From: Variovorax sp. DXTD-1
GTDB taxonomy: Bacteria > Pseudomonadota > Gammaproteobacteria > Burkholderiales > Burkholderiaceae_C
DNA length: 64,000 nt
Assembly (NCBI RefSeq): GCF_003984625.1
Contig: NZ_RWKH01000012.1
Location: 62,001-126,000 of the forward strand
Reading direction: 5' to 3'
Below the pieces are notes generated by a model. The model was not told the DNA's origin and did no database searches. It saw nothing but the letters and a program-made list of their open reading frames with translations. Each line of letters starts with the position of its first letter. Within the stretch, counting starts at the first letter, position 1. A program made the translations under genes and the position numbers. Below are positions 733-36,196 of this stretch, in pieces.

Positions 733-2082
<1,350 letters not shown>

Positions 2083-32734: not shown

Positions 32735-33511
32735 TCACATGAGCGAGAAATCGCGCTCGAATCTCATCAGGTGCTGGCCGCCGTCCACCAGCAGCGTGGT
32801 GCCGGTGATCGAGTTGTTCTCCAGCGCAAATTTCACCGTGGCCACCACGTCGGCCGGCGTGGAAGAGCGGCCCAGCGGCGACAGCTTGTGCAGCTGCGCA
32901 AACTTTTCGTCGTCCAGCATGTGGCTCGAAAGCGTGAGGCCCGGCGCAACGCCGACCACCCGCACGCGCGGGGCCAAAGCCAGCGCCAGCATGGGCGTGG
33001 CGGCTTCCAGCGCGGCTTTCGAGAGCGTGTAGCTGAGAAAGTCGGGGTTCGGGTTCCAGAGCTTCTGGTCGAGCAGATGCACCACCGCACCTTGCGCATC
33101 GCGCAGCGCCACGTGGTCGCGCAGCGCCTGCGCCAGCAGGATGGCCGCCCCTGTGTTGCTGCGCGCATGGCGCTCCATGAGCGCATAGCTGAAGCTGGCG
33201 GCATCGTCGTGCTCGAAGAGCGCCGCACTGTGGACCACCGCATCGACCCCGCCGAAGTGCGCCGCCACCCGCGGCAGCAAGGCACGGGTGGCGCCTTCGT
33301 CGAGCAGGTCGGCCTCGAAGGCGGCCGATTTGCCCGAGAGCCCCGCGCATTCGGCGGACGTTTGCTCGGCCTCGATGCGAGAGCTGCGGTAGTGCACCGC
33401 CACCTGCCATCCCCCCGCGGCCAGCGCCAGTGCAATCTCGCGCCCCAGCCGGCGGCCCGCACCCGTGACGAGAACGGTGCGGGGGCCTGCGGAAAGCGGT
33501 GCTGTGCTCAT
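32735..33511 (-). CDS. short-chain dehydrogenase, pteridine-reductase-like
   Basis: The 258-residue SDR has the NADP-binding TGAGRRLGREIALALA (the RRLG form is typical of pteridine reductase/FolM-like SDRs), the Asn/Ala region VHSAALFEHD, and the catalytic Tyr and Lys in SYTLSKAALE. The ATG at 33511 is used. Position directly next to folB suggests reduction of dihydropterin or dihydrofolate, but this is inference. The divergent methyltransferase gene starts 26 bp away, so both promoters must lie within or beside the coding starts. Confidence 0.87.
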   Translation of the reverse strand: MSTAPLSAGPRTVLVTGAGRRLGREIALALAAGGWQVAVHYRSSRIEAEQTSAECAGLSGKSAAFEADLLDEGATRALLPRVAAHFGGVDAVVHSAALFEHDDAASFSYALMERHARSNTGAAILLAQALRDHVALRDAQGAVVHLLDQKLWNPNPDFLSYTLSKAALEAATPMLALALAPRVRVVGVAPGLTLSSHMLDDEKFAQLHKLSPLGRSSTPADVVATVKFALENNSITGTTLLVDGGQHLMRFERDFSLM

Positions 33512-33537
33512 GCGGACGGAGAAGGGAGAATCGGGGG

Positions 33538-34650
33538 GTGACGACAAAGACGACGAACAGTTTACCCATCGCCCTCGATGCCCTGATCGCCCGCGCCGTG
33601 GAACGCGCCGGCGGCTGGATCGGGTTCGACCGCTTCATGGCGCTGGCCCTGTATGCGCCGGGGTTGGGCTACTACGCCAACACCTCGGCCAAGTTCGGCC
33701 ACATGCCGTCTTCGGGCAGCGACTTCGTGACCGCGCCCGAACTCACGCCCATGTTCGGCCAGGCGCTTGCCGCGCAGGTGGCCGAGGCGCTGCATAAGAC
33801 TGGCACCGACACGGTCTGGGAGTTCGGTGCCGGCTCCGGCGCCCTGGCCGTGCAACTGCTGCACGCGCTCGACGAAATGGGCCGTACCGACGTGCGCTAC
33901 CGCATCGTCGATCTTTCGGGCACCCTGCGCGAGCGGCAGCAGCAGGCCCTGGTGCGTTATGAAGGCCGTGTCGAGTGGCTTGGCGAACTGCCCGAGTCGA
34001 TGCAGGGCGTGGTGATCGGCAACGAGGTGCTCGATGCGATGCCTGTGCAACTGCTGGCGCGCGTCGGCAGTCAGTGGTTCGAGCGCGGCATCGTGCGCAA
34101 TGCAGGGGGCGACGGCTGGACCTGGGCCGACCACGAGACCGACCTGAGGCCGCCGTTCGAAGTGCCGGGCGAGCACGACTATTTGACCGAAATCCATCCG
34201 CAGGCCGAGGCCTTTGTGGCCACCTTGGCGGACCGCCTGACGAAGGGCGCGGCCTTCTTCATCGACTATGGTTTTCCGGAGCGCGAGTACTACCACCCGC
34301 AGCGCCACATGGGAACGGTGATGTGCCACCGGGCCCACCAGGCCGATGGCGATCCGCTGTCCGATGTGGGCTACAAGGACATCACGGCGCATGTCAACTT
34401 CACCGGCATTGCGCTCGCGGGGCAGGAGGCGGGGCTCGAGGTGCTGGGCTACACCAGCCAAGCGCGGTTTCTGCTGAACTGCGGGTTGCTGGAGAAGATG
34501 GAGCAGGGCTCTACTGCGGAGAGGGGAATGGCGGCTCGGCTCGTTCATGAGCATGAGATGGGGGAGCTGTTCAAGGTGGTGGGGTTTGCTGTGGGGGATG
34601 CTTGGGAGGCGATGGGGTTTTTGGAGGGGGATCGGAGTCATACGCTTTGA
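33538..34650 (+). CDS. MidA/NDUFAF7-family SAM-dependent methyltransferase
   Basis: The 370-residue protein fits the family of mitochondrial NDUFAF7, which dimethylates an arginine of a complex I subunit. Visible motifs are YYANTSAKFG then GSDFVTAPELTPMFG, AdoMet site EFGAGSGALAVQLL, IVDLSGTLRERQ, FFIDYGFPEREYYHP, and CHRAHQADGDPL. I start it at the GTG at 33538 because GGGAG lies 8-9 bases upstream. The last 100 bases become unusually G/T-rich and run straight into a palindromic repeat. Whether the bacterial protein acts on complex I is unknown. Confidence 0.88.
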   Translation: MTTKTTNSLPIALDALIARAVERAGGWIGFDRFMALALYAPGLGYYANTSAKFGHMPSSGSDFVTAPELTPMFGQALAAQVAEALHKTGTDTVWEFGAGSGALAVQLLHALDEMGRTDVRYRIVDLSGTLRERQQQALVRYEGRVEWLGELPESMQGVVIGNEVLDAMPVQLLARVGSQWFERGIVRNAGGDGWTWADHETDLRPPFEVPGEHDYLTEIHPQAEAFVATLADRLTKGAAFFIDYGFPEREYYHPQRHMGTVMCHRAHQADGDPLSDVGYKDITAHVNFTGIALAGQEAGLEVLGYTSQARFLLNCGLLEKMEQGSTAERGMAARLVHEHEMGELFKVVGFAVGDAWEAMGFLEGDRSHTL

Positions 34651-34662
34651 CTCTTTGGCTTG

Positions 34663-35243
34663 TTTGTTTCCCGAGGCCGGGTCTCGCCCCGGCGGGCGAC
34701 TCACTTTCTTTGCTTCGCCAAAGAAAGTAAGCAAAGAAAGGCGACCCCTACTGTCTGCGTCCCTCCGCTGCGCTACGGGCAACCTGCGGTGCTCGATTCC
34801 GGCGGGGGTCCGCAGAACTCGCTTCGCTCAAACAGCTGCGGCCCTGATCCCGCCTCCATCTGCGCTCCTCGGCGCATACAGAAGGGGTGGGAGCGGGCAG
34901 CCGTCGCTTCGCTCGGCCCCAACACGAACAGCCAACAGCCAATACCAACCCCCGCGGGCGCTGCGCGCCTGCGGGGCTTTGTGGCCGAGCGAAGCAAAGG
35001 CCCGTTCGGTTTCCAAGCCCCTCTGTATGCGCCGAGGAGCGCAGGGTTTCGCGGATCAGGGCTCGCAGCTGTTTGAGCGAAGCGAGTTCTGCGAGACCCC
35101 GCGAAACCCGAGCACCGCAGGTTGCCCGCAGCGAAGCGAAGGGTCGCAGACAGTGGGGTCGCCTTTCTTTTGCCTACGTTTCTTTGGCGAAGCAAAGAAA
35201 AGTAGGTCGCCCGCCGGGGCGAGACCCGGCCTCGGGAAACAAA
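34663..35243. repeat. 581-bp imperfect palindrome (two inverted arms, no gene)
   Basis: The outermost 38 bases of each arm (34663-34700 and 35206-35243) are exact reverse complements, and matching blocks continue inward to a centre near 34953. Examples are AACTCGCTTCGCTCAAACAG and its partner near 35070-35090, and CTCCTCGGCGCATACAGA with its partner near 35024-35041. Each arm also holds its own hairpin; in the left arm CTTTCTTTG-N6-CAAAGAAAG spans 34704-34727. Open frames run through it on both strands but only because the arms mirror each other. There is no transposase. Similar elements are common in Comamonadaceae genomes, as I recall. The 661-bp gap 34651-35311 holds nothing else I can name. 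Confidence 0.9.
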
Positions 35244-35311
35244 AAAAGCCTACATAAGCTATCAACAAAGATTTCGTTGAGAAACCACCGCTGAAAACCT
35301 ACATTGGCGGA

Positions 35312-36196
35312 ATGACCGCTTCCCCCAAGACCGAAGCTCCTCCGCAGCACTTCGAAGTCCGCCCCTTCTCCGCCCCCGTAGGCGCAGAAATCCTCGGCCT
35401 CGACATCTCCAAGCCCATCAACGCCGAAGATTTCGCGCACATCCACCGCGCCCATCTGGACCACCACGTCCTGGTCTTCCGCGACCAACGGATTACGCCG
35501 CAAGAGCACATCGATTTCAGCCGCCGTTTCGGCCCGCTCGAGATCCACGTGCTGCATCAGTTCCACCTCAAGAACCATCCCGAGATCCTGATCGTCTCCA
35601 ACATCAAGGAAAACGGCGAACCCATCGGCCTCGGAGACGCAGGCGTCTATTGGCACTCGGACATCTCGTACAAGCCCCAGCCGAGCCTCGGCTCGCTGCT
35701 GCATGCCCAAGAGCTGCCGAGCGAAGGCGGCGACACGCTCTTCGCCGATCAGCATCTCGCATGGGAAGCTCTAAGTCCGCAACTGCAGCAGCGCATCCTG
35801 CCGCTCAAGGCCGAGCACAGCTATCTCGCCAAGTACGAAGAGCTGCGCGCCAGGAACCCGTGGCGGCCCAAGCTTTCGCAGGCGCAGATCGACCAGGTCG
35901 CGCCCGCCGTGCAACCGGTGGTGCGCACGCACCCCGAAACGGGCCGCAAGGCGCTTTTCGTCAGCGAGCATTTCACGACGCGCATCGTCGGCCTGCCGCA
36001 GGCAGAAAGCGATGCACTGCTGGCCGAGCTGTTCGCGCACAGCGTGAAGCCCGAGTTCGTGTATCGCCACGCATGGGCGCCGCACGACCTGGTGTTCTGG
36101 GACAACCGCTCGCTGATGCACCTGGCCGCCGGCACGCCCGACCACCTGCGCCGCCGCCTGAACCGCACCACCGTCGTCGGCGACACGCCTTTTTGA
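35312..36196 (+). CDS. TauD/TfdA-family Fe(II)/2-oxoglutarate dioxygenase
   Basis: The 294-residue protein is a cytoplasmic alpha-ketoglutarate-dependent oxygenase. Metal ligands are the HxD pair in YWHSD (about residues 114-116) and the distal His in SLMHLA; 2-oxoglutarate would be held by Arg in RRRLNRTT. GRDQRITPQEH-like FRDQRITPQEHIDFSRRFG is the typical N-terminal part. Family substrates include taurine, sulfonates, 2,4-D and other acids; this one cannot be assigned. It begins 69 bp after the palindrome and has no transporter next to it. Confidence 0.87.
   Translation: MTASPKTEAPPQHFEVRPFSAPVGAEILGLDISKPINAEDFAHIHRAHLDHHVLVFRDQRITPQEHIDFSRRFGPLEIHVLHQFHLKNHPEILIVSNIKENGEPIGLGDAGVYWHSDISYKPQPSLGSLLHAQELPSEGGDTLFADQHLAWEALSPQLQQRILPLKAEHSYLAKYEELRARNPWRPKLSQAQIDQVAPAVQPVVRTHPETGRKALFVSEHFTTRIVGLPQAESDALLAELFAHSVKPEFVYRHAWAPHDLVFWDNRSLMHLAAGTPDHLRRRLNRTTVVGDTPF

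Follow-up and report, generated by a model that had tools for sequence, protein, structure and literature searches.

A scattered family of bacterial intergenic repeats, apparently new to the literature, with two distinct, inverted, self-folding ends

The window, by which we mean the whole 64,000-nucleotide stretch of Variovorax DNA that was analyzed, carries between two genes one copy of a scattered bacterial repeat family that is apparently new to the literature; no published description of the repeat was found in a search that had little reach into subscription journals. Each copy has two ends of ~250 nt that are homologous yet distinct and lie in inverted orientation around a variable center. 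With moderate confidence, we take this to be a REPIN/MITE-like element that is non-autonomous, has ends that fold as single strands, and is only rarely mobilized, by an enzyme encoded elsewhere. We consider it non-autonomous because gain is rare, copies decay, the ends are paired and inverted, and the element has no gene of its own.

Results

Structure of the palindrome in the window

The element measures ~590 bp, has GGCTT...AAGCC as its outermost bases, and is palindromic far above chance (Table 1). A preliminary description had reported an imperfect palindrome at 34663-35243 with perfect 38-bp ends and a 24-bp hairpin inside each arm. Direct reading of the two ends bore this out, and the inner hairpin is present in both arms. 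When 606 nt were folded as RNA, the result was -504 kcal/mol compared with -258 +/- 7.8 kcal/mol for 20 dinucleotide shuffles (z -31.6). Each arm is a distinct end that folds on itself, the two do not make a simple palindrome, and it is because the ends are distinct that the arms are only ~81% complementary over the 117-nt stretch covering stem B. The element had also been thought to replace a normal intergenic region, which proved incorrect, as the same site without the element in G011 still has a short spacer. Four overlapping ORFs cross the palindrome, with 0 Pfam and 0 NCBIfam matches, and a coding function for them was rejected; ORF calls within palindromes of this kind are likely to be spurious.

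Table 1. Features of the element and its neighbors, in positions of the window.
Feature	Position	Strand	Remark
Whole element	34657..35250 (approximate)	.	1 of 4 full copies in genome
Left end module, type 2 arm	34662..34918	- (outward reading)	alignment of 81 arms
Right end module, type 1 arm	34983..35244	+ (outward reading)	arm alignment
Left 38-bp perfect outer end, holds overlapping tip hairpins	34663..34700	.	direct reading
Right 38-bp perfect outer end	35206..35243	.	direct reading
Core hairpin D, left end (CTTACTTTCTTTG-GCGAAG-CAAAGAAAGTGAG)	34700..34731	-	
Core hairpin D, right end (GCCTACGTTTCTTTG-GCGAAG-CAAAGAAAAGTAGGT)	35172..35207	+	
Two overlapping tip hairpins, pseudoknot or alternative folds	35207..35230	+	
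Tip hairpin A	TCGC 35207-35210 / GCGA 35219-35222	+	
Tip hairpin B	GCCGGG 35213-35218 / CCCGGC 35225-35230	+	
Stem B, left (type 2) end	34795..34860	-	
Stem B, right (type 1) end, GCGAAGC loop	35044..35109	+	
Short GC-rich hairpin at apex (variable center)	34950..34976	.	
Inverted arms	34660-34707/35199-35246		48 nt, 94%
Inverted arms	34705-34726/35179-35200		22 nt, 100%
Inverted arms	34724-34840/35064-35180		117 nt, 81%
Inverted arms	34860-34892/35012-35044		33 nt, 91%
Inverted arms	34900-34922/34979-35001		23 nt, 87%
Upstream gene, Methyltransf_28 family	33499..34650	+	stop codon ~6 bases before element
Downstream gene, TauD/TfdA-family dioxygenase	35312..36196	+	~60 bp past element

Copies and host range

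This Variovorax genome (5.25 Mb, 92 contigs) has four full copies (C4, C23, C22 and C18) and further fragments on C26 and C31. The preliminary description had named a single copy, or arms that match by chance, as findings that would speak against its reading, and neither was found. Matches were present in 26 of 41 genomes (its own and 40 relatives), mostly of the same genus, with up to dozens in one relative. The end core occurs in at least 116 stretches of named genome contigs; among the matches listed are Comamonadaceae, Oxalobacteraceae (Herbaspirillum, Undibacterium, Collimonas), Neisseria, Silvimonas and Jeongeupia, as well as Aggregatibacter, Pasteurella, a Cardiobacteriaceae MAG and Methylomagnum. 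A looser core pattern matched 37 of 200 whole genomes sampled in the order (reversed-pattern control, 4 of 200) and 8 of 184 sampled in the class (control, 1 of 184), where three of the order positives (G106, G131, G203) and two of the class positives (G288, G382) are chance matches as judged by eye. A weaker single-core match lies on a megaplasmid of Ilyobacter (Fusobacteriota). The element matched none of 50,697 phage records, and a phage origin was rejected on that count.

Several related arrangements were seen alongside the full copies. Stem B modules occur alone, lacking hairpin D and the tips, at 1500-1780 of L009 (C26 of G000), so the hairpin modules disperse separately too. A second hairpin, CCCTCTCCC...GGGAGAGGG with TGGGGTGAGGG, is found in the centers and flanks of several copies (the center of L071 in G014; L280 and L281 in G184) and looks widespread. 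In Paraburkholderia, core hairpins give dozens of matches per megaplasmid, and on the P. caribensis megaplasmid they flank a putative transposase gene on both sides (L082, 450-2700).

Two types of end with conserved hairpins

Read outward, each end is built of stem B, a small hairpin C, the conserved GGTCGCCTTTCTTTG, core hairpin D, a tip of two overlapping hairpins, and an A-rich sequence. Pairs in which a reversed end faces a second end make up 71 of the 122 ends or end pairs among the matches listed (at least 116 stretches) and span 129-780 bp; no partner was recognized for 51 of the 122 ends in this mixed genome set, again among the matches listed. The stem of the type 1 arm is GCGTTTCGCGG/CCGCGAAACGC, and type 2 arms have stems such as GATGGAGGCGGG, GACGTAGGAGGG or GGGGAAAGCGGG with their partners. 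Both arms could be parsed in 39 elements, and 35 of these join a type 1 arm to a type 2 arm, 33 as assigned by script and two (L246, L251) by eye. The exceptions are L239 and L254, which have two type 1 arms, and L261 and L262, which combine type 1 with a close variant. G184 belongs to another genus of the family; its pairs C2:66532/67088 and C2:164934/165683 each join two different core versions.

In hairpin D the inner part is kept and the outer pairs vary on both sides (CTTAC/GTGAG, CCTAC/GTAGG, GGTAC/GTACC, ATTCC/GGAAT). We compared pairing in the hairpins with shuffled controls, which overstate significance because related sequences share ancestry and serve here as a guide and not as a probability: the four outer pairs tested in hairpin D were formed at 79% in 37 distinct stems versus 56% (maximum 65%) when the 3′ strands were shuffled 1000 times; stem B, found in 80 of 81 Variovorax arms in 20 distinct versions, was 89% paired versus 67% shuffled (maximum 75%); and the tip hairpins together reached 10 pairs or more in 83 of 124 distinct tails, against 144 of 2480 shuffled ones. 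The covarying hairpins extend across genera. An RNAalifold consensus fold over the full arms had a covariation term of 83, which we did not use as a test; alignment A1 had shifted the stem, and pair counts were taken instead by script with the stem anchored. For the tip, a pseudoknot and mutually exclusive hairpins are equally likely, the pseudoknot being uncertain because the third loop often has just 1-3 nt to span a stem of 4-5 bp.

Strand preference, loops and placement behind genes

The outward-reading strand seems to be the functional one, and to be single-stranded, because G.T pairing exceeds A.C pairing there. In hairpin D, G.T outnumbers A.C by 16 to 5 in distinct stems and by 71 to 5 over all 126 ends. 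Counting the whole extended stem gave 264 versus 17, which is inflated since extension rewards G.T, and the anchored count is preferred. The loops of 131 hairpins next to the core include 39 GNA triloops, two GNRA and one UNCG. Many are C-GNA-G/GCGAAGC loops, with GCGAAGC carried by both hairpin D and stem B. In the accessible text of PMC4686876, GCGAAGC and GNA loops with two or more G-C pairs are described as extraordinarily stable DNA mini-hairpins. Judged by loop type alone, the balance leans toward ends that would act as DNA rather than RNA. What speaks against this is that a CC-GNA-GG loop, read on the complementary strand, gives UNCG, a stable tetraloop of RNA.

Gene context was determined for 41 copies from nine Variovorax genomes, orthologues included, using genes derived from ORFs by script and not from annotation. 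The flanking genes are tandem at 27 copies, convergent at 10 and divergent at 4, and copies lie mostly 2-40 bp past a stop codon. The loci on mixed genome contigs were left out of these numbers because they are too noisy, with ORFs entering the mask and 45 of 122 unplaceable.

The main rival to our proposal is an RNA role at transcript 3′ ends. Each end would be a structured RNA module that serves as a 3′-end boundary, an insulator, an RNase III site or a small RNA, and spread would be secondary. The position just past stop codons with few divergent pairs, the strand-biased G.T pairing, the covarying and overlapping tip hairpins, and the strong predicted fold all agree with such a role. However, Rfam gave no meaningful match, as no curated family was matched and only sub-threshold matches to eukaryotic miRNA and snoRNA were returned; GNRA and UNCG loops are nearly absent on the strand indicated by G.T pairing; and occupancy of the window site varies across the genus, as described below. 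The sequence after the tip is A-rich and not T-rich, so the ends are no intrinsic terminators, a candidate that was rejected by reading because A-rich sequence follows the hairpin on both strands and the polarity of the A/T tracts is wrong. We consider the RNA-level role possible, but rather unlikely.

Gain, loss and rearrangement of copies

The preliminary description had asked whether the insertion site is empty in close strains, and it is so in G011, G020, G013, G003 and G002. The element lies at this site in G000, G010, G014 and G016, stands inverted in G004 and is represented by one arm in G009; G017, whose contig ends there, probably has it too. G019 and G021 show no element-sized gap, and in G007 the gap is filled by another gene. 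A search of 8 kb (L285) for the right arm in G009 found only the one arm. At the G004 site, a small lipoprotein-like gene with a borderline BamE match and a decayed dioxygenase gene fragment adjoin the element (L081, 1979-2353 and 2527-2732).

Other sites differ between genomes in the same way. The C22 site is empty in G004, where 23 nt separate convergent stop codons; the L236 site is empty in G000 and G004, and the L242 site in G004. The L237 copy in G011 was most likely gained, because in G000, G004 and G020 its site is a gap of only 4 nt from TGA to ATG. Copies also decay by internal deletion, and the L235 site in G000 holds a tip-only remnant. C18 is present in G004, G011 and G020. Several copies are orthologous across species, with flanks ~85% identical, so movement must be rare.

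The suggestion that the palindrome is a recombination hotspot gained support from breakpoints and flips at copies. In G020 the flanks of L242 adjoin two different copies, which marks a rearrangement with breakpoints at the element. Relative to the flanking sequence, C23 is inverted in G011 and G020, and in G004 half of it is deleted. Several contigs of G018 and G017 end at copies. The G011 orthologue of C23 is 88% identical to it, whereas non-orthologous copies are 91-92% identical, which suggests that exchange between copies may have taken place.

These last observations would also suit a neutral by-product, in which template switching and gene conversion match the stems without selection and ordinary duplication spreads the copies: the C23 identities, the flips and the half-deletions are all to be expected. 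Symmetric repair, however, does not explain why G.T exceeds A.C on one strand, and neither the two maintained end types nor a core conserved across families is accounted for. We therefore regard this explanation as improbable.

Centers, borders and the question of a transposase

The description of the element as MITE-like stood in part. The family is multi-copy, with terminal inverted repeats, no gene of its own and empty sites; a target duplication and a cognate transposase were not seen. Comparison of occupied and empty sites at the window site, C22, L237, L236 and L242, where the borders have diverged, yielded no recognizable target-site duplication, and reading of Variovorax copies revealed no transposase gene inside them. 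An autonomous parent was sought in pairs with long centers, for which L275, L276 and L278 were examined for genes and L277, L279 and L282 for repeats; no transposase was recognized in the centers of L275, L276 and L278. A classic MITE, derived from a DDE transposon and having long terminal inverted repeats and target duplications, is thus very unlikely: its long inverted ends, copy number and empty sites are matched here, and some long-center forms enclose genes (L275, L278), but the borders and centers just described speak against it, and covarying internal hairpins are unneeded for MITE tips.

Long-center forms are either true gene-carrying units or genes lying between two copies. The center of L275 holds a FemAB-like/GNAT gene together with an arginase match below threshold. 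In L278 (G062, 523-1625), inverted arms of 258 nt (86%) surround a ~600-bp center with a 165-aa signal-peptide-like ORF that has no Pfam match, and this is possibly a gene-carrying form. L276 (G078) has two secreted-type ORFs between inverted end cores (935-1678 and 1682-2047, minus strand), the larger of which, with a Pfam match to Pertussis_S1 (E 3e-16), would be an AB5-toxin-type ADP-ribosyltransferase.

The element and Y1/RAYT genes

Y1 (PF01797), the one family of ssDNA transposases covered by the tests, has a single gene in each of the 16 Variovorax genomes searched; of 25 Y1 loci, not one has the element closer than 1.5 kb. Y1 was found in 22 of 37 core-positive genomes versus 122 of 200 genomes overall, so there is no association, and G184 and G078 have 17 core matches with no Y1 gene. 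In the portion of PMC2817692 available, two inverted REPs are said to flank RAYT genes in every case. Mobilization by RAYT/Y1 was rejected as a general route on the 25 loci and the lack of co-occurrence in 200 genomes. That the single-copy Variovorax Y1 transposase moves the element as a REPIN is accordingly most improbable, even with one such gene per genome and inverted paired hairpin ends like those given for REPINs in the accessible part of PMC3116915, since no conserved GTAG/CGTC tag accompanies the ends either.

The Variovorax Y1_Tnp proteins at L202-L226 are ~240 aa long, and in several of these loci a shared TCCCCAATTTAATTCTGAC...ATCTGACCCCTATTAAA stretch follows Y1_Tnp. In several of the loci read, what we take to be the start of gltB apparently follows it as well. 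The arrangement of Y1_Tnp and TCCCCAATTTAATTCTGAC...ATCTGACCCCTATTAAA is a REP-like setting unrelated to the palindrome.

Discussion

We return to the non-autonomous REPIN/MITE-like element. Because the ends covary and show a strand preference, we suggest that a protein may recognize the folded single strand of the ends. In our reading, an enzyme encoded elsewhere would recognize them when they form hairpins of single-stranded DNA, as at replication forks, and the element would settle in tolerated spots behind genes. After insertion, a very stable stem-loop in the upstream transcript would probably be a boundary or an RNase III substrate, and exchange between copies and between arms could homogenize the family. 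A broader proposal, which we regard as unlikely, is that these elements are a so far unrecognized class of mobile DNA across Beta- and Gammaproteobacteria. Every copy would have two different ends of several hairpins with conserved structure, a single end of each type; an enzyme unrelated to Y1/RAYT transposases would recognize these as folded single strands, and genes would sometimes be carried between them.

If our reading is right, a large intergenic repeat family of common soil and host-associated bacteria had gone undescribed. With these ends, the search for the enzyme behind the movement would have a substrate that can be tested directly, and the element would account for assembly breaks (the contig ends of G018 and G017) and genome rearrangements at copies (G020 versus G011).

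Comparison with known systems

A REP-type structure had also been considered. It holds insofar as this is a repeated extragenic element, and fails on the unit length, the tag and the RAYT link. The available text of PMC3733652 defines the REP/BIME unit as a palindrome of 20-40 bp, whereas the unit here is ~250 nt of several hairpins. The GTAG/CGTC tag of REPs is not kept; the sequence beside inner hairpin D varies (GTGA, GTAA, GTAG, GGAA, GAAG and others) among 55 stem variants. As in REPINs, two inverted units are joined into one hairpin unit, here by the paired ends, but a cognate RAYT flanked by the same repeat is not found. Going by the passages of PMC3116915 at hand, REPINs or REP doublets and BIMEs share with our family an inverted pair of extragenic palindromes, a variable spacer, an intergenic position, a non-autonomous nature and the choice between folding as one long hairpin and folding into local ones. 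They differ in that copies per genome are few here and there is no Y1/RAYT association.

MITEs and enterobacterial RU/ERIC-type repeats are likewise short and multi-copy, with inverted ends and no genes, as far as the accessible sections of PMC2759123 go. Our family differs in its much longer structured ends, its occurrence in Beta- and some Gammaproteobacteria, and the absence of a recognizable target duplication.

Palindrome-associated elements derived from IS200/IS605 have ends that are recognizable as single-stranded DNA hairpins and lie in the same orientation. The ends described here may be recognized in a similar way, but they are inverted, and no Y1 link was found. Eukaryotic fold-back elements have long, inverted, modular arms around a variable center and rearrange frequently. 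These features recur in our family, which in contrast is bacterial and small and has covarying local hairpins. Among all of these, the family works most like a REPIN or a MITE.
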